In this document: positions 16,580 through 28,469 of the stretch, piece after piece
How positions within the stretch are numbered: position 1 is the first letter of the stretch
Layout of the letters: every line of letters starts with the position of its first letter
Assembly: GCF_000255115.2 (NCBI RefSeq)
Contig: NC_018068.1
Span: 930,001-994,000 of the forward strand
Direction: 5' to 3'
DNA: 64,000 nucleotides
DNA from: Desulfosporosinus acidiphilus SJ4
Lineage (GTDB): Bacteria; Bacillota; Desulfitobacteriia; Desulfitobacteriales; Desulfitobacteriaceae
The notes under the pieces: model-generated
What the model was told of the DNA's origin: nothing
Database searches by the model: none
The model's input: the letters and a program-made list of their open reading frames with translations, nothing else
Made by a program: the position numbers and the translations under genes

Positions 16580-16641
16580 AAAATATATCCAAACAAAAAA
16601 GAACTTATCGTTTCGAGTTCTTTTTTGTTTGGATATATTTT
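16580..16641. terminator. perfect 26-bp inverted repeat, bidirectional terminator
   Basis: Bases 16580-16605 are exactly complementary to 16616-16641 with a 10-nt loop. The arms contain A6 and T6 runs beside AGTTC/GAACT, so U-rich tracts follow in either direction. It insulates the kdp promoter from upstream transcription. Such perfection over 26 bp is unusual for a terminator and could also mark a small mobile repeat. Confidence 0.65.
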
Positions 16642-16718
16642 TACGAAATTTTTACATCATATTTACCCTATTATGATGCTGTTAAATCTTACAATTTTAC
16701 AGGTATTAGAACTATAAT
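16640..16718 (+). promoter_or_regulatory. kdp promoter with 11-bp-phased TTTAC operator array
   Basis: TTTAC occurs at 16640, 16651 and 16662, exactly 11 bp apart, within the stretch TTTTACATCATATTTACC. A further TTTAC at 16696 lies 12 bases before a perfect TATAAT at 16713-16718. There is no good -35 box, as expected for an activated promoter. The same array and the same TTTAC-N12-TATAAT arrangement precede kimA at 25645-25689. Assignment to KdpE is inference from family spacing rules and gene context. Confidence 0.6.
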
Positions 16719-16792
16719 GACGTTAAATTCAAAAAGATTCTGAGTGAGAATTAATGAATAAGAGCTATTAACGTGGATTGAAGGGAATACGA

Positions 16793-17035
16793 ATGATAAA
16801 AAGTGCAGTAGAATTTCTTCTTTTGGGATTAACCTCGGTTCTCTTGTTTATTGTTTATGAAAGATTAAGGTTTAATACAGGTAAAGAAATGCTGACAGAA
16901 AAAATGATAAGGTTTCTGGAGAGGATTCATCAAAAAACGGCGCCTAACTACAATGATCCGGAGATGAGGAATTACAAGTTGTCAGAAAAGGTTATCGTGA
17001 AAGAAGTTTATTTCCAGCGTGAAATCGATAGTTAA
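16793..17035 (+). CDS. small single-pass membrane protein at the head of the kdp operon
   Basis: 80 residues from ATG 16793, ten bases after TGAAGGGA. A membrane helix at about 5-24 (VEFLLLGLTSVLLFIVYERL) is followed by a basic, soluble tail of 55 residues with no known motif. It is the first gene after the kdp promoter, about 100 bp before kdpF, so it is probably co-transcribed. No family was recognised. Possible roles are a Kdp assembly or regulatory peptide, but nothing in the sequence proves this. Confidence 0.6.
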   Translation: MIKSAVEFLLLGLTSVLLFIVYERLRFNTGKEMLTEKMIRFLERIHQKTAPNYNDPEMRNYKLSEKVIVKEVYFQREIDS

Positions 17036-17134
17036 TTCTATGTAAAAAGGGGAAATATAAACAAATTAAAGGCAGTTTTAATTAAGTTTTTATGTATCTG
17101 GTGTAACAGACATCAATTATAGGGGGGAATATAT

Positions 17135-17221
17135 ATGTTGGACCTAGTATTAGGAGGGATAGTTACGGTGGGTCTTTTGGTTTATTTAAGTTACTCACTT
17201 GTAAATGCTGAAAAAATATAA
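17135..17221 (+). CDS. kdpF: KdpF, small subunit of the K+-transporting ATPase
   Basis: 28 residues, MLDLVLGGIVTVGLLVYL followed by SYSLVNAEKI. This is a single hydrophobic helix ending in the typical LVNAE(K/R) tail of KdpF. ATG 17135 follows AGGGGGGAAT. KdpF stabilises the KdpABC complex in the membrane. It lies directly before kdpA, in the standard kdpFABC order. It is easily missed because of its length. Confidence 0.9.
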   Translation: MLDLVLGGIVTVGLLVYLSYSLVNAEKI

Positions 17222-17295
17222 GAGAGCTTAAATGACTTTCTATTAATCCCCGTTGAAGATTACAACGCATTGCTTTTTAAAATGGAGGACAACTG

Positions 17296-18993
17296 ATGAG
17301 AACGATGGATATAGTACAAATACTATTTTATGTTTTAATTCTTACAGTTTTAGCTATTCCTTTGGGTCGATATATGGCTAAAGTTTTTAGCCAGGAAAAT
17401 ACTTGGGTTGACCCGCTGTTTCGACCTCTTGAAAAACTGATCTATCGTCTAACGGGAACTGATGAACAAAGCGAGATGGACTGGAAAAGCTATGCCGGGG
17501 CACTCCTGATTTTCAACTTCTGTGGTTTTTTCGTTCTTTTTTTACTTCAGTTGCTACAAAAATACCTTCCCCTTAATCCTCAAGGGTTCGGTGCAGTGTC
17601 CCCGGATTTAGCGTTTAATACTGCCGCTAGTTTTGTAACGAATACGAACTGGCAAGCGTACTCCGGTGAATCCACCATGAGTTATATGGTACAGATGGCA
17701 GGGTTTACTGTCCAAAATTTTGTCTCTGCCGCAACTGGTATCGTTGTGGTGATTGCCCTTACAAGAGGTTTGGCGCGAAAAACCGCATCTACAATCGGAA
17801 ACTTCTGGGTAGATCTGACTCGTTCCATCTTATGGATATTACTTCCTTTATCAGTGATTGGAGCGCTTGTTCTGACGCAACAAGGTGTTATACAAAATTT
17901 TAGTTCGTATTTACATTTGGCAACTCTTGACGGCGGTAAGCAAACTCTTGCTATGGGGCCGGTGGCTTCCCAAGAGGCCATTAAAATGTTTGGAACCAAT
18001 GGAGGGGGCTTTTTCAATGCCAATTCGGCCCATCCTTTCGAGAATCCTACGCCGTTATCCAACTTTTTAGAAATGCTCTTTATCTTGCTTATTCCGGCTG
18101 CTTTACCTTTTACCTTCGGACACATGGTTGGCAATCCCAAACAAGGAAGGGTAATCTTTGTCACGATGCTCGTACTGTTCTTAATATTTGTAGGAGCTAC
18201 TTATTCCAGTGAAATGTACGGAAATCCAAATGTGACAGCCTTGGGAATCAGTGGTCCTTCGGCCATGGAAGGCAAAGAAGTACGTTTTGGCGTTGCGAAT
18301 TCTGCGCTCTTTGCCACTATCACTACTGCAGCCTCCTGTGGAGCGGTAAACGCGATGCACGATAGTCTTACCCCCCTCGGTGGTATGATTCCGATGCTGC
18401 AAATGATGTTAGGGGAAGTCGTTTTTGGCGGTGTCGGTGCCGGACTCTACGGTATGCTGATCTTTGTAATCTTAACCGTCTTTATAGTGGGTTTAATGGT
18501 TGGGCGAACTCCTGAGTATTTGGGCAAAAAAATCGAATCTTGGGAAATAAAAATGGCCACTATTGCGATTCTTGTGCCGGCCGTTACAATTTTGGTGGGA
18601 AGTGCTCTGGCGAGTGTTACAAAAGCAGGGACCTCGTCAATCTTAAATCCGGGACCTCATGGTTTAAGTGAGATTCTCTATGCTTTTACTTCTGCTGGAG
18701 CGAACAATGGAAGCGCCTTTGCAGGCCTAAATGCTAATACGCCCTTTTATAACATCGCCATTGGGATAGCGATTCTTCTTGGACGATTTGGAATTATTCT
18801 TCCAGTCTTAGCAATTGCCGGTGGCATGGTCAAGAAGAAAGCAATTCCTGAAGGCCCCGGTACGTTTCAGACGACAGGCCTGCTTTTTGGAGGTTTACTT
18901 GCGGGGATTGTGATTATAGTCAGTGCCTTAACCTTCTTCCCGGCACTTGCCTTGGGTCCAATTGTTGAACATTTAATCATGATTGGGAAATAA
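17296..18993 (+). CDS. kdpA: KdpA, K+-binding channel-like subunit of the Kdp ATPase
   Basis: 565 residues, the normal family length, with about ten membrane helices. Selectivity-filter-like loops are visible: NTNWQAYSGE, TNGGGFFNANSAHP, and the later SCGAVNAMHDSLTPLGG and SAGANNGSAFAG. They are the four pore loops of this superfamily-of-K+-transporters subunit. KdpA binds K+ from outside with micromolar affinity and passes it through an internal tunnel to KdpB. ATG 17296 is eight bases after GGAGG. Confidence 0.97.
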   Translation: MRTMDIVQILFYVLILTVLAIPLGRYMAKVFSQENTWVDPLFRPLEKLIYRLTGTDEQSEMDWKSYAGALLIFNFCGFFVLFLLQLLQKYLPLNPQGFGAVSPDLAFNTAASFVTNTNWQAYSGESTMSYMVQMAGFTVQNFVSAATGIVVVIALTRGLARKTASTIGNFWVDLTRSILWILLPLSVIGALVLTQQGVIQNFSSYLHLATLDGGKQTLAMGPVASQEAIKMFGTNGGGFFNANSAHPFENPTPLSNFLEMLFILLIPAALPFTFGHMVGNPKQGRVIFVTMLVLFLIFVGATYSSEMYGNPNVTALGISGPSAMEGKEVRFGVANSALFATITTAASCGAVNAMHDSLTPLGGMIPMLQMMLGEVVFGGVGAGLYGMLIFVILTVFIVGLMVGRTPEYLGKKIESWEIKMATIAILVPAVTILVGSALASVTKAGTSSILNPGPHGLSEILYAFTSAGANNGSAFAGLNANTPFYNIAIGIAILLGRFGIILPVLAIAGGMVKKKAIPEGPGTFQTTGLLFGGLLAGIVIIVSALTFFPALALGPIVEHLIMIGK

Positions 18994-19027
18994 CTTTTAC
19001 TATTAATTGTAACTTGGAGGCAACAAC

Positions 19028-21085
19028 ATGCAAGAAAATGTGAGCCATGAAGGTAAAAAAACCCCTTCGGGGAGTTTTAACTCAGCAATGATCTTGGAAG
19101 CCAGCAAAGATGCTTTCAAGAAATTAAACCCTTCGATTATGTGGCGTAATCCGGTTATGTTTGTGGTAGAGATCGTGGCAGTATTAAGCATCTATTTTGT
19201 GCTTAGGGATTTGTTTATCCATGCTGAAACATTGAGTTTTAATGCTCAAATTGCAGTTTGGTTATGGATAACGGTTTTATTCGCGAATTTTTCCGAAGCT
19301 ATCGCCGAGGGGCGAGGAAAAGCACAGGCCTCGGCCCTGCGCAAAACGAGGAGTGAAACATTAGCTAAAAAGCTTGACGGTGAAAAACACGTGAATGTAC
19401 CCGCCCCCGATCTGCGTAAAGGGGACATTGTTTTAGTAGAAGCAGGGGATGTTATTCCCGGTGACGGGGAAGTCATTGAAGGCATTGCGTCGGTTGATGA
19501 AAGTGCAGTCACGGGAGAATCGGCACCCGTTATTCGTGAATCTGGCGGTGACCGCAGTTCCGTTACGGGCGGAACTAAAGTTTTATCAGACTGGATTAAA
19601 GTTAAAATTACTGCTAACCCTGGGGAAACCTTTCTGGACCGCATGATTCATTTGGTTGAAGGAGCCAAACGACAAAAAACACCGAACGAAATTGCCTTAA
19701 CCATTTTGCTTTTAGGGTTAACAATTATTTTCCTGCTGGCAGTTGCTACTCTTGAACCTTATGCTATTTATTCGGGAACCATCGTCGCTGTTCCGGTTCT
19801 AGCCGCTCTGTTAGTTTGCCTTATTCCCACAACTATTGGTGGTTTGCTCAGCGCCATTGGGATTGCCGGAATGGATCGTTTGTTAAAACGAAATGTCCTG
19901 GCCATGTCCGGTCGGGCTGTAGAGGCTGCCGGCGATGTCAATGTTTTGTTGCTGGATAAGACAGGTACAATTACTCTTGGTAACAGAATGGCGACGGAAT
20001 TTATCCCGGCACCGGATGTACCGGTGGAAAAACTGGCAGACGCAGCTCAAATTTCCTCACTCGCCGATGAAACTCCGGAAGGACGCAGCATTGTTATCTT
20101 AGCAAAAGAAAAATACAATTTGAGAGAGCGTGATATCAATAGTTTAGGCGCCACATTTATACCCTTTAGTGCCCAAACGAGAATGAGCGGTGTTAATTTC
20201 GAAGGACGAGAAATTCGCAAAGGGGCAACAGATGCCATTGAAAACTATGTTCGAGAGCAAGGCGGGATTATGCATCCCGATGTTATTGCTGCAGTAGAAG
20301 AGATCGCCAAAAAAGGGGGTACCCCTTTAGTTGTGGCAGAAGGAACTCAGGCATTAGGAGTCATCTATCTTAAGGACGTTGTCAAAGGCGGTATTAAAGA
20401 ACGGTTTGCCCAACTTAGAAAAATGGGCATAAAAACAGTCATGATTACAGGCGATAATCCGCTTACAGCGGCTGCCATAGCAGCAGAGGCAGGAGTTGAT
20501 GATTTCTTAGCTGAAGCAACTCCGGAAGCAAAATTGAAGCTGATTAGAGATTACCAAAATAAAGGGCATCTCGTGGCCATGACAGGGGACGGAACAAATG
20601 ATGCCCCGGCACTGGCTCAGGCAGACGTAGGAGTAGCCATGAACAGCGGGACTCAGGCAGCTAAAGAAGCGGGCAATATGGTTGATTTAGACAGTAACCC
20701 TACAAAACTGATTGAAGTTGTGGAAATTGGTAAACAGCTTTTAATGACGAGAGGTTCACTGACTACATTCAGTATCGCCAATGATGTAGCAAAATACTTT
20801 GCCATCATTCCGGCCTTATTCTTTGCCACTTATCCTCAATTAAAGATCTTAAATATTATGCACTTAGCTACTCCCCAAAGTGCCATCCTGTCAGCAGTGA
20901 TTTTTAACGCTTTGATTATCATCGCGCTAGTACCTCTTGCTTTACGCGGGGTGAAATACGAACCCCTTGGAGCGAATATTATTCTGAGAAAAAATCTCTT
21001 GTTCTATGGTTTAGGTGGTTTGATTGTCCCATTCATCGGAATTAAAATCATTGATTTGATTATCTCAGCTTTAGGCTGGGCGTAA
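19028..21085 (+). CDS. kdpB: KdpB, P-type ATPase catalytic subunit
   Basis: 685 residues. P-type ATPase landmarks in order: actuator-domain TGES (dephosphorylation loop, in [10 protein letters not shown]), membrane motif [17 protein letters not shown], phosphorylated Asp in DKTGTIT, nucleotide-domain region around [22 protein letters not shown], and hinge [10 protein letters not shown]. In some species a Ser in the TGES motif is phosphorylated to switch Kdp off, and that Ser is present. It hydrolyses ATP to drive K+ uptake with KdpA, KdpC and KdpF. It follows kdpA after 34 bp with its own AACTTGGAGG site. Confidence 0.97.
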
Positions 21086-21098
21086 GAAGGGAGTGTTA

Positions 21099-21680
21099 AT
21101 GATGCTAAAGCAATTTATCAAGGGTGTTGCCATGCTGCTTGTAATGATTGTTCTGACAGGAATTGCTTATCCCTTAGTCGTGACGGGTCTTGCACAGCTG
21201 TTTTTTCCACATCAAGCGAACGGATCTTTGGTATATAAGAATGGTAAAGCGGTGGGATCACAGTTAATCGGACAGAATTTATCTGATCCTAAGTACTTCC
21301 AACCAAGACCTTCGGCTGCCGGAACAAATGGTTATGATGCGACAGCATCGGGGGGATCTAATTTAGGTCCTACGAATAAGGATCTCCTCAAGGCAGTGGC
21401 AGATCGGGCAAATACTATCCGCAGGCAAAACGGATTAAGCTCGAGCCAGGAGATTCCTTCGGATTTGGTGACTGCTTCGGCAAGCGGCTTAGATCCTGAT
21501 ATAACTCCGGAAGGAGCTATGCTTCAAGTTCCCAGGATAGCAAAATTAAGAAATCTGCCTGCTGCAACAATCAGAAATCTTGTCCAACAAGATACAACCC
21601 CACGGCAATTAGGGATTTTCGGAGAGCCGAGAGTAAATGTTCTTCGACTAAACCTTGATCTTGACGGCTTGACGAAATGA
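21099..21680 (+). CDS. kdpC: KdpC, accessory subunit of the Kdp ATPase
   Basis: 193 residues from ATG 21099, six bases after AAGGGAG (a GTG at 21093 overlaps the ribosome site). One N-terminal membrane helix (about 10-32) is followed by a periplasm-side domain with the family motifs SDPKYFQPRPSA, DATASGGSNLGPTN, DLVTASASGLDPDI and RNLVQQDT. KdpC sits beside KdpA and is thought to help load K+ or stabilise the complex. It completes kdpFABC. Confidence 0.95.
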   Translation: MMLKQFIKGVAMLLVMIVLTGIAYPLVVTGLAQLFFPHQANGSLVYKNGKAVGSQLIGQNLSDPKYFQPRPSAAGTNGYDATASGGSNLGPTNKDLLKAVADRANTIRRQNGLSSSQEIPSDLVTASASGLDPDITPEGAMLQVPRIAKLRNLPAATIRNLVQQDTTPRQLGIFGEPRVNVLRLNLDLDGLTK

Positions 21681-21730
21681 ATTATAGCTAAGCGGTTAGT
21701 GTTTATACTTTTAACTGCTTAGCTTTACTT

Positions 21731-21785
21731 GCACTTATGCATAGAAAGTATAAACTAGCGTTATATACTTTCTGTGCATAAGTGC
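21731..21785. promoter_or_regulatory. 22-bp near-perfect hairpin between kdpC and kdpD
   Basis: 21731-21752 (starting GCACTTATGCATAGAAAG) pairs with 21764-21785 around an 11-nt loop; one T-G wobble is the only imperfection. No U-run follows, so it is not a classic terminator. It probably sets an mRNA processing or stability boundary between the transporter subunits and the sensor genes. Confidence 0.55.
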
Positions 21786-21838
21786 AGATAGGTTTCTGCC
21801 CACGCCAGCCAAGTTTTCTTTATTCAAAGGAGGATATC

Positions 21839-24544
21839 ATGAGCGAGAAAAAACGAGTTAGTCCTGATGAACTTTTAGCTGATATAGAAGATGAGGCTAA
21901 GGGTAAACTAACGGTTTTCTTAGGCGCGGCTGCCGGTGTCGGCAAAACCTATGCCATGCTGGAAGTTGCCAGGGAAAGGCTCTCCGAAGGAATTAAACTG
22001 TCGGCTGGATGGGTTGAACCGCATGCGCGGCCAGAAACAATGGCTTTAATGGAGGGGATTCCTCAGATTGCCCCCAAAGAGATTGAGTATCACGGTAAAG
22101 TCTTAAAAGAGATGGACCTTGACGAAATCTTATCAATCCATCCTCAGATCGTCTTGGTGGATGAGCTTGCTCATACAAATGTCCCTAGTTCCCGGCATCT
22201 AAAACGTTACCAAGACGTCGAGGAACTTTTGGCAGCGGGAATCGACGTTTATACGACAGTAAATATTCAACATGTGGAAAGTTTTAATGACATTGTTGCT
22301 AAAATAACGGGAGTTACCGTGCGGGAAACGGTTCCTGATTCTATCCTTGAACATGCTAGAATACAGCTCATTGATATATCGACCGAAGCTCTAATTCAGC
22401 GTTTAGAAGAAGGTAAAATATACGTTCCTAACCAGGCGAAGCATGCGTTAGATAAATTTTTTCGCCCCGGGAATATCAATGCCCTGAGAGAACTATCCAT
22501 GCGCTTTGCTGCTCAGAGGGTGGACCGGCAGTTGGAATCCTACATGCGGGTCCACGGCATAGAAGGGCCTTGGCCAGCCAGTGAACGGGTTATGGTTTGT
22601 ATCAGCTCCAGCCCATTTGGTGAACGATTGATTAGAATGGGGAAACGAATTGCCGTAGGAATGAAGGCCGAACTGCTTGTCGTCTACATTGATACGCCTT
22701 CGAACCCTCTGAAAAATGAAAACCAAAAGGACCAATTGTCCAAAAGCTTGCATTTAGCTCAAGAGTTAGATGCAGAAACGATATCCTTGAGCGGCAACGA
22801 TGTTGTCGAGGAACTGCTTGAGGTTGCACAGAAACGTAACGTAACCCAGATAATCATAGGGAAACCTGGTCAGCTTAAAATTCGGGAACGCTTTTCTAGC
22901 TCAATTGTCGAAAAGGTTCTGCGACAAAGTCAAAATATCAGCGTCCATGTTATACCGGGGGATGGACCTAAAACTAAGGAAGAACGGGAAAATAAGAAAA
23001 CTGGTGTTAAAAAAACCAACGATCTTGTTCCATACTTGACTACTTTTGTATCCCTTGCAGTCATAACAGTCGTTGCTTGGTTAGGAAGTTCCGAATTGGG
23101 CCTCGTTAATACCGCGATGCTCTATTTACTTCCCGTACTTTTAAGTGCTGGGCGTTACGGAAAAAGGGTAGGTATTTTCACCTCTATTGTATCCGTCATT
23201 ACCTATGACTTTTTTACCATTCCTCCAGTTCTAACATTTACAGTTGCTGATTTAAGGTACCTTGTTAGTTTTGCCATTATGATTCTCATTGGTTATTATT
23301 TGGGTAATTTGTCAACCCGCTTAAGAATACAGCTTATTAATTCCCGGCAGCGTGAGTCGCAAACGGCAGCTCTCTATTCCTTAAGCCGTGAGATTGCGGC
23401 AGTCTCTGATTTGGATTTTGTACTCGAAAGTGTTGTAAAAAAAGTATCGGATATAATTCGAGGTGAGGTTGTAATCTTAGTACCGGAAACGAACGGACAG
23501 TTATCTTTGCGGTCTTGCTCAAACCTGGAAACGGCGTTTGAAGAAAATGAAAGGGCAGTAGCCACATGGGTTTTTGAAAACAATCAGACAGCAGGAAAAG
23601 GTACCGATACCCTCGGGGGTGCCAAAGGATTTTACCTGCCGTTGGTCTCCGAACAGGGAATTTGCGGTGTTCTTGGAGTGCAGCAATCAAGTTCGGAAAG
23701 GTATCTGTCGGCGGAAAAAAGACGTTTATTGGATGCCTTTGCCAGCTTGACGGCGTTGGCCATAGCGAGAATATCATTGGTCGAAAAGGCAAGAGAGGCG
23801 CAATTGTTAAACGAATCAGAAAAACTGCGAACAGCATTGCTCAACTCTATCTCTCATGATTTACGAACACCTCTGGCTTCGATGATAGGTGCTGTAACAA
23901 GTCTCATTGAGAATGATAAACTTTTCGATGTAACCTCAAGGCAGGATCTTCTCGAGACCATTAAAATTGGCGCTATGCGCATGAATAAGCTGGTTAATAA
24001 TTTACTTGATATGGCGCGGTTAGAAAGTGATATGCTTAAGTTAAATAAAGAATGGTGTGAGATTGATGAAATTATTAAAGAGGCAATCAAACATATTGAT
24101 GAAGGCTTAGAAAATAAACGAGAAATAATATGTGAGATTTCTAATAAAGAGTTGTTGGTCAATGTGGACTTCATCTTGATTAAGCAAGTTCTTACAAATC
24201 TTTTGGATAATGCCATGAAATATTCCAAACCTGATAGCCGAATTTGTATCATCGTTAGAAATAATGAAAAACAAGTTGAGGTATCGGTACGTGACTGGGG
24301 CTTACCGATTCCACCAGAGGATTTAGAACATATTTTTGATAAGTTTTACAGAGTCCGTTCTCCGCGCCAGATTAGCGGTACAGGTTTAGGTTTGGCTATC
24401 TCAAAAGGAATTGTGGAGCTTCATGGCGGAAAAATACAGGCAGAAAATAATAGTGAGATCGGGGGAGTTACGATTTCTTTTACAATTCCACTTAGCAAAA
24501 TACCCCCAAGAATTCCTGTGGAAGTAGGCGATGACAATGAATGA
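21839..24544 (+). CDS. kdpD: KdpD, K+/turgor-sensing histidine kinase
   Basis: 901 residues from ATG 21839, placed by AAAGGAGG. The KdpD N-terminal domain (about 10-220) has a Walker-A-like GAAAGVGKTYAML and LVDELAHTNVP. A USP-like domain (about 230-355) is followed by four membrane helices (about 380-480, DUF4118), a GAF-like domain (about 505-640), HisKA with His in NSISHDLRTPLAS, and an ATPase with DNAMKYSKPD and GTGLGLAI. It controls kdp through KdpE. The USP domain has CISSS followed 20 residues later by LLVVY. The first half fits the proposed C/A/G-x-S-x-S c-di-AMP motif, but FTAxY is replaced, so c-di-AMP binding is doubtful. Confidence 0.96.
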   Translation: MSEKKRVSPDELLADIEDEAKGKLTVFLGAAAGVGKTYAMLEVARERLSEGIKLSAGWVEPHARPETMALMEGIPQIAPKEIEYHGKVLKEMDLDEILSIHPQIVLVDELAHTNVPSSRHLKRYQDVEELLAAGIDVYTTVNIQHVESFNDIVAKITGVTVRETVPDSILEHARIQLIDISTEALIQRLEEGKIYVPNQAKHALDKFFRPGNINALRELSMRFAAQRVDRQLESYMRVHGIEGPWPASERVMVCISSSPFGERLIRMGKRIAVGMKAELLVVYIDTPSNPLKNENQKDQLSKSLHLAQELDAETISLSGNDVVEELLEVAQKRNVTQIIIGKPGQLKIRERFSSSIVEKVLRQSQNISVHVIPGDGPKTKEERENKKTGVKKTNDLVPYLTTFVSLAVITVVAWLGSSELGLVNTAMLYLLPVLLSAGRYGKRVGIFTSIVSVITYDFFTIPPVLTFTVADLRYLVSFAIMILIGYYLGNLSTRLRIQLINSRQRESQTAALYSLSREIAAVSDLDFVLESVVKKVSDIIRGEVVILVPETNGQLSLRSCSNLETAFEENERAVATWVFENNQTAGKGTDTLGGAKGFYLPLVSEQGICGVLGVQQSSSERYLSAEKRRLLDAFASLTALAIARISLVEKAREAQLLNESEKLRTALLNSISHDLRTPLASMIGAVTSLIENDKLFDVTSRQDLLETIKIGAMRMNKLVNNLLDMARLESDMLKLNKEWCEIDEIIKEAIKHIDEGLENKREIICEISNKELLVNVDFILIKQVLTNLLDNAMKYSKPDSRICIIVRNNEKQVEVSVRDWGLPIPPEDLEHIFDKFYRVRSPRQISGTGLGLAISKGIVELHGGKIQAENNSEIGGVTISFTIPLSKIPPRIPVEVGDDNE

Positions 24545-25220
24545 AAAAGGGAAACGAATTCTGGTTATTGATGATGAGCCTCAAATTCAGAGGCTTCTGA
24601 AGGTTTCCTTATCTGTACATGGTTATGAGGTATCTGAGGCAATTGATGCCAATGAAGGTTTGAGTAAGATTAAGCAGATGAAGCCGGATTTAATTGTTCT
24701 GGATTTAGGGCTTCCTGATTTAGACGGTATCGATGTTCTGACAAAGGTGCGAGAAACCTCGAAGGTCCCTGTAGTTGTTCTGACTGCTCGTGAACATGAA
24801 AATGATAAAATATTAGCCTTTGATTTGGGAGCAGATGATTATGTTACTAAGCCCTTTGGTATGGGGGAACTTCTGGCGCGGATTCGTAATGCACTAAGAC
24901 ACAGCAGCGATGTTAATGATGAAGAGATTTTGAAATTTGGGAATATTACCATCGATCAAGAGAATAGAGAAGTAAGAGTCAATGACAATCAGATTAAACT
25001 TACGCCAACAGAGTATCAATTAATAACCATGTTAGCCCAAAATAAAGGAAAAATAGTGACACATCACCAGCTCTTAAGCAAGATTTGGGGAGTTGATAAG
25101 GATGCAAATAGTCATTATTTAAGAATCTATATAGGGCAGTTAAGAAAAAAGTTAGAACAAGATCCTTCGGAACCAATCCACATTATCAATGAACCGGGAG
25201 TTGGATATAAGATCGTGTAG
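24531..25220 (+). CDS. kdpE: KdpE, OmpR-family response regulator for potassium uptake
   Basis: 229 residues. ATG 24531 (or 24537) overlaps the end of kdpD by 14 bp, so translation is coupled. The receiver has VIDDEPQ, phospho-acceptor Asp in VLDLGLPDLDG, Thr in VVLTARE and Lys in VTKPFGM. The DNA-binding domain ends in IINEPGVGYKI, the usual KdpE C-terminus. It should activate kdpFABC at low K+. The 11-bp-phased TTTAC arrays before kdp and kimA are candidate binding sites. Confidence 0.95.
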   Translation: MTMNEKGKRILVIDDEPQIQRLLKVSLSVHGYEVSEAIDANEGLSKIKQMKPDLIVLDLGLPDLDGIDVLTKVRETSKVPVVVLTAREHENDKILAFDLGADDYVTKPFGMGELLARIRNALRHSSDVNDEEILKFGNITIDQENREVRVNDNQIKLTPTEYQLITMLAQNKGKIVTHHQLLSKIWGVDKDANSHYLRIYIGQLRKKLEQDPSEPIHIINEPGVGYKIV

Positions 25221-25263
25221 GACTCATTTGCAAAGATAATGATCTATAACTGGGTTGCGATTT

Positions 25264-25322
25264 GCTCCCCTTTTAAGTACAGGTTGAATATAAACCTGGT
25301 ACTTGAAGGGGAGCGTTTTTAT
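25264..25322 (+). terminator. terminator of the kdp operon
   Basis: GCTCCCC with TTTAAGTAC-AGGTT (25264-25285) pairs with AACCTGGTACTTGAAGGGGAGC (25293-25314), followed by G and TTTTT. It is a long, strong stem immediately after kdpE. Confidence 0.85.
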
Positions 25323-25644
25323 GTATTAACGAACTAATACCCATTACGAAACTTGACTATATCGCATGAACTTAAAGCAGGTTAAACATTTAAGGCAAAA
25401 TTCTATTGAAATACAATATTATTGAAGTGCATATGACACTGGAGTTACTTTCCAGAGGGATAATGAATTAAGATTTAAAGAACATTAAGAAAATGATTGT
25501 TTAATTCATGATTAGCAATAAATATTCTTAAAAATTAAAAAAAATATAATTAATTAAAATTTAATTTACACTATTTTTAATTTACATTCAAATATTTAAT
25601 CTTTATTTTTTATTTATGTCTATGAGAGCTATTTTTATTACAAT
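25323..25644. other. very AT-rich region upstream of kimA
   Basis: No gene. From about 25500 to 25640 the sequence is almost entirely A and T, with TTAATT and AAATTTAATTT runs. It probably forms a curved or easily melted upstream region of the kimA promoter. It holds no recognisable c-di-AMP (ydaO-type) riboswitch. Confidence 0.45.
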
Positions 25645-25689
25645 TTTACATCATTTTTATATAATTTTTACGCACCTTTGCTCTATAAT
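25645..25689 (+). promoter_or_regulatory. kimA promoter with 11-bp-phased TTTAC array
   Basis: TTTAC at 25645, TTTAT at 25656 and TTTAC at 25667 stand exactly 11 bp apart, and TTTTACATCATTTTTA closely matches the kdp element. TATAAT at 25684-25689 follows the last TTTAC by 12 bases, the same spacing as at kdp. The predicted transcript has an approximately 125-nt leader. Confidence 0.6.
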
Positions 25690-25821: not shown

Positions 25822-27672
25822 ATGTTTAGCGTTAAGAATTTAATTATTGGTAAGCCTCTTGAAAATTCATCACTAGCCCATGAGAAATTGACTAAAATTA
25901 AAGCATTAGCGGTGTATTCTTCCGATGCATTATCCTCGGTTGCTTATGCCACAGAAGAAATACTGTGGGTACTTGCCCCTATTGGCGCTTTTGCTCTGTC
26001 CTATGCACTTCCAGTCTCGGGAGTTATTGTGTTGCTTTTAGCAACTTTAATTATGTCCTATCGCAAAACAATTTTTGCCTATCCATCGGGTGGTGGGGCC
26101 TATATTGTTGCCAAGGACAATTTGGGCCAGCATGCCGGCTTAATTGCAGGAGCTTCATTGGTTATAGATTATATATTAACAGTTTCGGTAAGTATAGCAT
26201 CCGGTGTAGCAGCCATTACCTCAGCATTTCCAAGCCTGCTGCCTCATACTGTAGCACTTTGTTTATTTTTTGTTTTATTCTTAATGGTCGTTAATCTTCG
26301 CGGGATTAAAGAGGCAGCTACTGTTTTTACGTTACCAACTTATATTTTCATTTTCTCGCTGTTAACGTTGATTGGTGTTGGCGTCTATAAACATTTCATG
26401 GGTTTGCCAATTTCCCCGGCTCCAGTGAATCCGGTCTTAGGCTCAACGCCTCAAAACTATATTACCTTGTGGATATTAGCAAAGGCTTTTTCTTCAGGTT
26501 GTACGGCTCTCACGGGGGTTGAGGCCATAAGTAACGGTGTCCCTAATTTTAAAGAACCTCGTTCACGAAATGCTGCGATAACTCTTGTCGCTATGGGAAT
26601 TATTATTGTTTTTCTTTTTGGGGGAACTACGTTTTTAGCTCAAATTCTCCATGTAACACCGAACGCTGATGAAACGGTCATTTCGCAGATTGCCCGCGTA
26701 TTAACTGGCAGAGGCTGGTTCTACTATTTACTACAAGCCAGCACCGCTGCGATTCTAATTCTGGCTGCTAACACGAGTTATAACGATTTTCCTTTAGTCT
26801 TTAGTCTAATAGCGAAAGATGGATATTTACCGCGGCAATTTTCCGCCCGTGGCGATAAGTTAGTCTTTTCGAATGGAATTGTAACTTTATCAATATTGGC
26901 GGCTTTATTGCTTTTTATATTTGGAGGAGATACCCATAACCTTCTTCCGCTCTATGCCATTGGAGTTTTTCTATCGTTTACCTTATCGCAAGTTGGGATG
27001 GTCGTTCATTGGCGTAAAATAAAGGAGGTTGGTTGGAAAACCAATATCATGGTTAATGGATTCGGAGCTACTTTAAGTGGGATTGTGCTTTTGATCCTGG
27101 CAACAGAAAAATTCATGAATGGTGCTTGGATCGTTATTGTCTTAATACCGTTATTGGTCTTGGCTTTCTTAAAAATCCATAAACACTATGTTGAAATTGC
27201 CAAAGAGTTGAGTGTTGATGGTCAAGTTTGTGAACATCCTGAACACATTAAAGTAATTGTCCCAGTTGCCACGTTTACGAGAGTTGTAGTTAATACTATT
27301 GAATATGCGACCTCCATCAGCAGCGACGTTACAGCTGTGCATATTGTACTTGATGAGGAGAAATCTGAGAAATTAAAATCAAGATGGGGTGAACGTTATC
27401 CCCATATTCCACTGGTTACGCTTCCTAGTCCTTATAGAGCCTTTTTATCACCTCTTCTTCAGTATTTAGAAGGCGTTGAAAAAACGATACAACCCCATGA
27501 GCTGATTATGGTGCTGATTCCGGAATTTATAACACATAAATGGTGGCAATATTTCTTGCATAATCAAACTGGGTGGGTATTAAAATCCGTACTATTTTTC
27601 AATAAAAATTATGTCATTGCCAGTGTGCCTTATCACATCAGTGAGCGGCAGAAGAAAATTGTTCCTCAATGA
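25822..27672 (+). CDS. kimA: KimA-type high-affinity K+ importer (APC superfamily)
   Basis: 616 residues, close to Bacillus KimA (about 607). The N-terminus MFSVKNLIIGKPL, then KALAVYSSDALSSVAYATEEIL, is diagnostic, as is SYRKTIFAYPSGGGAYIVAKDNLG. Twelve membrane helices (to about residue 450) are followed by a cytoplasmic C-terminal domain of about 150 residues, which in the Bacillus protein forms the dimer interface and binds c-di-AMP. K+/H+ symport is the known function. In Bacillus the gene has a ydaO riboswitch; here a Kdp-like operator replaces it. ATG 25822 is preceded by GAGAAGGAG. Confidence 0.88.
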   Translation: MFSVKNLIIGKPLENSSLAHEKLTKIKALAVYSSDALSSVAYATEEILWVLAPIGAFALSYALPVSGVIVLLLATLIMSYRKTIFAYPSGGGAYIVAKDNLGQHAGLIAGASLVIDYILTVSVSIASGVAAITSAFPSLLPHTVALCLFFVLFLMVVNLRGIKEAATVFTLPTYIFIFSLLTLIGVGVYKHFMGLPISPAPVNPVLGSTPQNYITLWILAKAFSSGCTALTGVEAISNGVPNFKEPRSRNAAITLVAMGIIIVFLFGGTTFLAQILHVTPNADETVISQIARVLTGRGWFYYLLQASTAAILILAANTSYNDFPLVFSLIAKDGYLPRQFSARGDKLVFSNGIVTLSILAALLLFIFGGDTHNLLPLYAIGVFLSFTLSQVGMVVHWRKIKEVGWKTNIMVNGFGATLSGIVLLILATEKFMNGAWIVIVLIPLLVLAFLKIHKHYVEIAKELSVDGQVCEHPEHIKVIVPVATFTRVVVNTIEYATSISSDVTAVHIVLDEEKSEKLKSRWGERYPHIPLVTLPSPYRAFLSPLLQYLEGVEKTIQPHELIMVLIPEFITHKWWQYFLHNQTGWVLKSVLFFNKNYVIASVPYHISERQKKIVPQ

Positions 27673-27788: not shown

Positions 27789-28469
27789 ATGAAAAAGGAA
27801 GGAAGACGAATCCTTGTTATTGATGAAGAAACACAAATTCGAAGGCTCTTGCGGGCAAATCTAACTGGCCAAGGATATGTTGTTAAAGATGTCGATACAG
27901 GAAAAGACGGACTTGATGCAGTGGCAAAGTTCGACCCCGATTTAGTCCTTTTGGATATAGAGTTGCCTGATATAAATGGATTTGATATGCTTCGCAAATT
28001 ACGGGAATGGTCTCGAGTACCTGTGATCATAGTGTCTGTAAAAAAGCAGGAAAAAGATAAGATAACAGCCTTAGATATAGGAGCTCATGATTATTTGACC
28101 AAACCGTTTGGTATAGGTGAATTATTAGCACGTATACGAAAAACGTTGCGTCAGAAATCAGAGTCCGAAGAACATCATTTAAAATTTGATGATTTAATGA
28201 TTGATCTGGCTCATCAACGAATATTTGTTGACGATAAGGAAATTATGCTCACCCCTATAGAATATAAAGTTCTGAGGAGTTTGGCTATTGACACTGGGAT
28301 GGTTGTTACCTATAAATCTTTAATGCGTACTGTGTGGGGACCTTCATTTGAAAAGAAGATACCTTATCTACGAGTTATCATCGGGCAGATTAGACGTAAG
28401 TTAGAGCAGGAGCCATCCAGTCCACGTCATATTATAACTGAACCCGGGGTAGGTTACCGATTAGTATAA
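27789..28469 (+). CDS. orphan KdpE-like response regulator
   Basis: 226 residues, clearly paralogous to the KdpE at 24531. It has receiver phospho-acceptor Asp in LLDIELPDING, Lys in LTKPFGI, and a DNA-binding domain ending in IITEPGVGYRL. The acidic pair is DE instead of DD and the conserved Thr position holds Ser (IIVSVKK); both changes are tolerated in working receivers. No kinase gene is adjacent, so KdpD is the likely phosphodonor. Its position right after kimA, about 117 bp downstream with no terminator between, suggests co-expression and a role in potassium control. Confidence 0.88.
   Translation: MKKEGRRILVIDEETQIRRLLRANLTGQGYVVKDVDTGKDGLDAVAKFDPDLVLLDIELPDINGFDMLRKLREWSRVPVIIVSVKKQEKDKITALDIGAHDYLTKPFGIGELLARIRKTLRQKSESEEHHLKFDDLMIDLAHQRIFVDDKEIMLTPIEYKVLRSLAIDTGMVVTYKSLMRTVWGPSFEKKIPYLRVIIGQIRRKLEQEPSSPRHIITEPGVGYRLV

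Follow-up and report, generated by a model that had tools for sequence, protein, structure and literature searches.

The arrays of TTTAC and TTTAT half-sites in front of kdp and kimA are very probably operators of the response regulator KdpE, and the KdpE regulon would thereby take in, besides kdp, other K+ importers and kdpDE. A sequence-only reading of this DNA had already placed kdp and kimA in one regulon. The proposal is supported by the likeness of the half-sites to those of E. coli KdpE and by a search of 45 genomes of the family, in which 49 of 57 matches lie upstream of kimA, kdp or kdpD-type genes. This distribution is best read as one KdpE-type regulon. Since the same operator stands at the K+ importers, they would respond jointly, and a single two-component sensor probably turns them on together. 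We found no report of KdpE control of kimA in the open-access literature.

From the sequences we infer binding by KdpE, a need for its phosphorylation, activation at low K+, replacement of the -35 element and the KdpE paralogue that serves each promoter. K+ shortage would be sensed by KdpD and lead to phosphorylated KdpE, which would bind TTTAY half-sites in head-to-tail order, each one helical turn from the next. In the general form of the array, the upstream pair would lie at about -72/-61 from the transcription start, where E. coli KdpE binds, and the second pair would straddle the -35 position, at about -40/-29. KdpE would thus substitute for the missing -35 and bring RNA polymerase to TATAAT. 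This common operator would drive kdpFABC, kimA and also kdpDE in this genome and its relatives, and the ktr genes in two genomes of other families.

If this reading is true, it offers a testable regulon with a predicted operator of exact geometry and four promoters in one genome, and with comparable promoters in 28 related genomes (G029 being excluded as a chance match). It would also mean that KdpE can serve as an activator in place of a -35 element, and that different Bacillota can put the same importers under either a response regulator or an RNA switch.

Arrays and genes in the window

The window (the whole 64-kb stretch of DNA analysed) comes from a genome of 4.99 Mb in three contigs. Between 16 and 28 kb the gene order is small ORF, kdpF, kdpABC, kdpD, kdpE, kimA and an orphan kdpE-like gene. 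The name KimA was taken over from the sequence-only reading. The features are as follows.

16640-16666, + strand: kdp promoter, predicted KdpE-type half-sites TTTAC at 16640, 16651 and 16662, in 11-bp register
16696-16718, + strand: kdp promoter core read from the sequence, TTTAC box at 16696-16700, N12, -10 TATAAT at 16713-16718
16778-17035, + strand: small ORF, first gene of the kdp transcript, 85 codons from TTG at 16778 or 80 from ATG at 16793
17135-17221, + strand: kdpF, 28 aa, with tblastn matches beside kdpA in relatives
17296-21680, + strand: ORFs with orthologues in relatives, which we take from homology and gene order to be kdpA (17296-18993), kdpB (19028-21085) and kdpC (21093-21680)
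21839-24544, + strand: kdpD, 901 aa from ATG, Pfam KdpD sensor domain, Usp, DUF4118, GAF, HisKA and HATPase
24531-25220, + strand: kdpE1, best solved relative E. coli KdpE (4kny), E 7.3e-67
25634-25671, + strand: kimA promoter, predicted half-sites TTTAT 25634, TTTAC 25645, TTTAT 25656 and TTTAC 25667, in 11-bp steps
25684-25689, + strand: kimA -10 TATAAT, with box starts 50, 39, 28 and 17 bp upstream
25822-27672, + strand: kimA, 616 aa, Pfam AA_permease_2 and K_trans, with orthologues in relatives
27789-28469, + strand: kdpE2, orphan KdpE-like regulator, 4kny at E 2.8e-62, grouping with the KdpE of kimA-kdp clusters

The small ORF, translated from 16790, matched no Pfam family; its relatives lie upstream of kdpF, or of kimA, in related genomes.

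Re-read base for base, the sequence holds the three boxes 11 bp apart that had been described at each promoter (TTTAC at 16640, 16651 and 16662; TTTAC at 25645, TTTAT at 25656 and TTTAC at 25667). The element TTTTACATCAT-N-TTTA, said to be common to both arrays, was found in both, and TTTAC-N12-TATAAT is present at kdp (16696-16718) and at kimA (25667-25689). Direct reading also agrees that neither promoter has a good -35. A further TTTAT at 25634, beyond the three kimA boxes noted before, is in register, so the kimA array consists of four consecutive boxes. The kdp boxes start 73, 62, 51 and 17 bp ahead of the -10. When the -10 is assumed to span -12 to -7, the half-sites would fall at -62/-51 in kimA, at -85/-74/-63 in kdp and at -72/-61 in the general form.

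These arrays are beyond chance in the window. With up to one mismatch, TTTAC-N6-TTTAC-N6-TTTAC has exactly two matches in the 64 kb, the kdp and kimA arrays, against 0.03 expected, and none of 100 shuffles reached two. The looser TTTAY-N6-TTTAY has eight matches against 2.03 expected, a number likewise reached by none of 100 shuffles. In a genome scan of the kind that had been suggested as a check, the TTTAY triple gave seven matches at four places in 4.99 Mb (three for the reversed pattern), and the random spread over AT-rich DNA that would have spoken against an operator was not borne out. The two places other than kdp and kimA (C3:4264750 and C3:4341497) are TTTAT-only repeats, the latter upstream of an FtsX/MacB-type permease gene.

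An alternative kdp -10, TACAAT at 16690, lies 28 bp past the third box, gives a kimA-like geometry and was the one chosen by the array score. It was rejected and the -10 kept at 16713, because TACAAT has no counterpart in the related promoters L028 and L029, whereas TTTAY followed by N12 and a TATAAT-like element has one.

Distribution of the array in the family and the phylum

The general form, drawn from related kdp and kimA promoters, is TTTAY-N6-TTTAY-N16-TTTAY-N6-TTTAY-N12-TATAAT, without a TTGACA-like -35. It was scored in 73 fetched upstream regions (54 of kimA and 19 of kdp, a part of all KimA and KdpA matches); only distances of 21, 22, 31, 32 and 33 between box pairs, and of 27 to 29 to the -10, were allowed. 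At least 22 of 26 was scored by 36 of the 73 regions and by none of 40 shuffles. The array passed in 14 of 19 kdp regions, in 9 of 10 of the window's own kimA group (at least 60% identity), in 4 of 10 of a second kimA group (44-49%) and in 9 of 34 of a third (about 40-43%). This more distant third group accounts for 25 of the 37 regions below the score, and at four of those 25 loci the array stands instead ahead of an upstream kdpD. The geometry is identical in 24 of the 36 passing regions, where the boxes start 60, 49, 28 and 17 bp ahead of a TATAAT-like -10, and ten others depart from it by a single base in one or two of the spacers. The remaining two are the window's own variants, a compact one in kimA (50, 39, 28, 17) and one in kdp with 73, 62, 51 and 17.

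Over the 73 regions, the general form is two box pairs 32 bp apart. The triple array was rejected for this role, its unbroken TTTAY form being confined to the window and to L028, L029 and L030; with one mismatch it is also present in two more regions, L011 and L035. In L028, L029 and L030 the triple lies at orthologous kdp promoters and is followed by TTTAY-N12-TATGAT or TATACT. The kdp loci of G008, G024 and G016 have the triple and the box before the -10 and, in addition, a general-form array upstream of kdpF. We also compared 30 related arrays, hand-chosen from K+ promoters only (26 of the 57 family matches and 4 of the 18 phylum matches described below, with the window's two excluded), so that the conservation of their box columns comes partly from selection. 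In these arrays the -35 place reads approximately RCYATT instead of TTGACA, the spacers are often T-rich and the sixth base A of the half-site TTTAYA is variable.

A search of the 45 family genomes with the general form, allowing up to three mismatches in 26 fixed positions, gave 57 matches in 30 genomes (9 for the reversed control). By comparison of coordinates, 44 of these lie on the same strand within 1.1 kb upstream of a KimA (17), KdpA (14) or KdpD (13) match. Five more stand before kdp remnants (G011 C445:5552, G026 C79 and G020 C113) or KdpD-like kinases (G035 and G043), which brings the total at kimA, kdp or kdpD-type genes to 49. Those at kdp and kimA follow in part from the origin of the pattern, since it was derived from such promoters of the same genomes. 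The 15 matches at kdpD-type genes (13 and 2) are new and had not been sought; neither they nor the matches outside the family carry this bias. No nameable K+ gene was found downstream of the other eight. Two of these precede an uncharacterised 164-aa ORF (G010 C68 and G013 C1:3101567), one is followed by no ORF of 90 aa that begins in the next 1.4 kb (G016 C82), one is G022 C123, and one, the sole match of its genome (G029 C370, three mismatches), lies within a gene and was taken as a chance match. The last three, in G032 and G033, are arrays pointing away from kdp. For all such arrays (G011, G032 twice and G033) no convincing downstream gene was found.

Four boxes without the -10 had 25 matches and none in the reversed control: 16 at kdp or kimA, four pointing away from kdp and five in TTTAT-only arrays or repeats. 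Two boxes with the -10 had 17 matches, ten of them at kdp or kimA, against six in the control. The KdpD sensor domain (PF02702 above cut-off) and the array occur together in 27 of the 45 genomes, the array alone in three, KdpD alone in three and neither in 12 (Fisher p 5.5e-6), a co-occurrence that is partly built in because many arrays lie at kdpD. G029 was scored as array-positive despite its in-gene match; G015 (boxes and no good -10 before kdpD) and G003 (a kimA array one base shorter) were scored as negative. These choices weaken the association.

In a sample of 398 genomes of the phylum, searched with up to two mismatches, there were 18 matches in 14 genomes and two in the control. Five belong to the family and lie at kimA or kdpD. 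Eight of the 13 outside it are at kdpF/A (five), a KdpD-like kinase (one) or ktr genes (two). In G123 the array is followed by a small ORF and then ktrB and ktrA (TrkH and TrkA_N by Pfam), and in G159 by a small ORF and a ktrA-like gene recognised by eye; a KdpE-like gene lies just upstream of both arrays. One further match is followed by a kinase-regulator operon and, 3.3 kb on, by a TrkA-N gene, and at four (L165, L173, L174 and L178) no K+ gene was apparent.

In the genome of the window, array promoters were found at four places: kdp (C3:946640), kimA (C3:955634), a second kimA (C3:1582766, two mismatches) and kdpD3-kdpE3-kimA3 (C3:2018189, one mismatch). The last two lie beyond the window and would add to the regulon as first proposed. 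The genome encodes three KdpEs (KdpE1, KdpE2 and KdpE3), and the array at kdpD3-kdpE3-kimA3 suggests autoregulation of kdpDE.

Four family genomes that are 90-100% complete (G021, G022, G028 and G041) have no KdpA match and carry the array at kimA, which lies within about 4 kb of an unbroken kdpD with a frame of 885-931 aa. Most simply, KdpDE would serve kimA in these genomes. We lean somewhat towards the wider view that in bacteria of this kind that carry KdpDE it has ceased to be the private switch of one pump and serves kimA even where no kdpA was found. D. metallidurans (G014) was set aside as a further case; its kdpD consists of two overlapping ORFs in different frames and is possibly broken, so the case rests on the other four.

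Known operators, rival readings and the orphan regulator

The E. coli KdpE half-sites are given as TTTATA-N5-TTTACA, with an 11-bp step and a footprint from -72 to -50, in the portion of the source used (PMC3264566), and the window arrays agree with them in core and in 11-bp spacing. The C. acetobutylicum KdpE motif is said in extracts of another report to resemble that of E. coli (PMC5401905). Common to these operators and the present ones are TTTAYA direct repeats 11 bp apart ahead of kdp. A difference is that a second pair of half-sites occupies the -35 place here, and that the operator is found at kimA, at kdpD-type genes and, outside the family, at ktr genes, and not at kdp alone. In Sinorhizobium fredii, according to extracts of the source, KdpE binds kdp and does not bind trkA or kup (PMC9239096). 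A wide KdpE regulon is therefore not general, and its extension to kimA and ktr would be a genuine enlargement. The variant geometry of the window's own promoters, the 37 of 73 upstream regions below the array score, the eight family matches with no nameable K+ gene and an exchanged DNA-contacting residue in KdpE1 (N for T215) also weigh against the KdpE reading. The kdp array of the window lies upstream of kdpFABC in a genome that also holds kdpDE, as expected of a KdpE operator.

Direct repeats about 11 bp, or one helical turn, apart are a common mark of OmpR/PhoB-family regulators, and the Bacillus PhoP box resembles TTTAC repeats. Activators of the PhoB/PhoP type replace the -35, and Pho box repeats 11 bp apart overlap the -35 region. 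It would thus be conceivable that another regulator of this family, for example PhoP in the phosphate response, binds the TTTAC repeats in place of KdpE. TTTAT-only arrays are also found upstream of a permease gene (this genome, G008) and upstream of a membrane protein gene beside another OmpR-type regulator (G008). However, the present arrays are like the Pho box in spacing and -35 overlap and differ in their targets, which are mostly K+ genes: 49 of 57 matches are at K+ uptake or KdpD-type genes, the other eight are partly identified, and a KdpE gene adjoins several arrays, including both ktr cases. We regard a different regulator as very improbable. Even less credit is given to the idea that the repeats are phased T-tracts acting only in DNA bending or as UP elements of AT-rich promoters. 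T-tracts phased at 11 bp do bend DNA, and T-rich spacers are frequent, but in a GC-richer genus (G001 and G002) most boxes are still TTTAC or TTTAT with several spacers GC-rich, and the triple occurs at no more than the four places given above.

A more serious rival to the single KdpE-type regulon, still an unlikely one in our estimate, is that KdpE2 alone governs kimA and KdpE1 alone governs kdp, as separate regulons with similar operators. The kdpE2 gene lies directly downstream of kimA, and its product, a receiver with an OmpR-type winged-helix domain whose nearest solved relative is KdpE, falls in the tree with the KdpE of kimA-kdp clusters. Its receiver Asp is conserved, as are two DNA-contacting Arg and the residue corresponding to the DNA-contacting T215 of E. 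coli KdpE, where KdpE1 has N. Against a separate kimA regulon, KdpE2 has no adjoining KdpD (in this genome PF02702 exceeds its cut-off at C3:951899 and C3:2018384 alone), and its branch in the tree is long (0.53). In addition, the kimA array of the window shares TTTTACATCAT-N-TTTA with the kdp array, whereas most other kimA promoters differ, with TTTAT-rich boxes and different spacers. An adjoining cognate KdpD is not obligatory for every KdpE.

KdpE2 is probably the relic of a lost kimA-kdpFABCD-kdpE cluster. At L049 the same kimA stands directly ahead of a small ORF, kdpFABC, kdpD (split into two overlapping parts) and kdpE; L048 has a kimA-kdp cluster without kdpFA, and in L012 and L013 kimA is upstream of kdpFABC. 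For the KdpE of L048 and L049, identity is 66-67% with the orphan and 54% with KdpE1 of the window. In a tree of KdpE sequences adjoining the fetched loci (at least 200 residues, with rows containing stops and duplicates removed), the orphan joins the KdpE of L048 and L051 with support of 98/99, on the long branch, which the tree tool flagged as unsure. The tree omits L049, L050, L052 and L053, and hence the KdpE of the whole L049 cluster. L051, from D. metallidurans, has kimA, a split kdpD and an orphan-type kdpE, with no KdpA match. Cluster order, identity and tree together make the orphan most simply the end piece of a cluster that lost its middle. It may be active or decaying.

The c-di-AMP riboswitch and KdpD

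In Bacillus, the c-di-AMP riboswitch governs kimA and ktrAB, as stated in the extract of PMC5573677, and at kdp the riboswitch and KdpDE are mutually exclusive, according to the part of PMC6488665 used. The window has no Rfam match to this riboswitch (RF00379) at gathering score. The riboswitch is present in 44 of the 45 family genomes, and the genome of the window has four strong copies, upstream of three NlpC/P60 genes and a citrate synthase gene. By comparison of coordinates by eye, it was never found nearer than 2 kb to any kimA or kdpA match in the 45 genomes, in a search whose stricter filters may lose weak matches; the nearest copy lies 2.3 kb downstream of such a match on the other strand (G016:C77). 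The exclusion between KdpDE and the riboswitch thus extends to kimA in the present genomes.

The sequence-only reading had held that KdpE, or the orphan KdpE-like protein, replaces the ydaO riboswitch (RF00379) of Bacillus. The riboswitches are indeed elsewhere in the genome and absent at kimA and kdp, and what is established is a difference in wiring rather than a succession in time. Both systems would couple the same importers to K+ status, judging from the extracts of the Bacillus reports (PMC5573677 and PMC6488665). The Bacillus system, which covers kimA, ktrAB and kdp, is an RNA switch, whereas here a predicted KdpE operator is found and no RF00379 near kimA or kdpA.

KdpD of S. aureus binds c-di-AMP through a motif SXS-X20-FTAXY in its Usp domain, in the extract of PMC4686210. 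The Usp domain of the window KdpD has SSS-X20-LLVVY at residue 256, in which the S and Y positions are conserved and FTA is absent. c-di-AMP could still act through this domain of KdpD.

Sequences flanking the kdp array of the window

The kdp array, a predicted KdpE operator of TTTAY boxes phased at 11 bp, is preceded in the window by a 27-bp hairpin (16580-16641; -33.3 kcal/mol, z -10.5), whose end lies in the T tract of the array's first box. Inverted repeats that by eye resemble terminators likewise lie upstream of the array at L028 and L029, two relatives' loci with the orthologous kdp promoter. The hairpin in the window perhaps insulates kdp against the genes upstream.

In several array-type transcripts the first gene, ahead of kdpF or kimA, is a small ORF (window 16778-17035 and loci L142, L153 and L160) that looks membrane-like on inspection by eye. 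The window copy had no Pfam match, and it is possible that the ORF encodes a K+-related small protein.

Arrays outside the kdp and kimA promoters

At L033 (6505-6570), L037 (5958-6023), L069 and L075 the kdp array has a second array upstream of it, at a distance of 163-174 bp and oriented away from kdp; these outward arrays span three genomes (G011, G032, which has two, and G033), and none has an obvious downstream gene. The kdpD gene has an array in G012, G017 and G019, where the searches returned neither a match to KdpA nor a close one to KimA.

At L185 (537-1058) and L186, loci from two families other than that of the window, uncharacterised proteins of 174 and 184 aa are encoded downstream of a KdpE-type array and ahead of ktr genes; the one scanned had no Pfam match. 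An array of the general form, TTTAY-N6-TTTAY-N16-TTTAY-N6-TTTAY-N12-TATAAT, also precedes an uncharacterised 164-aa ORF in two genomes (G010:C68 and G013:C1:3101567; L180 and L182).

Arrays composed of TTTAT only

Arrays phased at 11 bp and made of TTTAT only were present in the window's own genome (G000:C3:4341497-4341545, L131) and in G008 (L054 and L067). The genes behind them encode an FtsX/MacB-type permease and a membrane protein adjoining another OmpR-type regulator, and these arrays are perhaps a similar operator for a different regulator.
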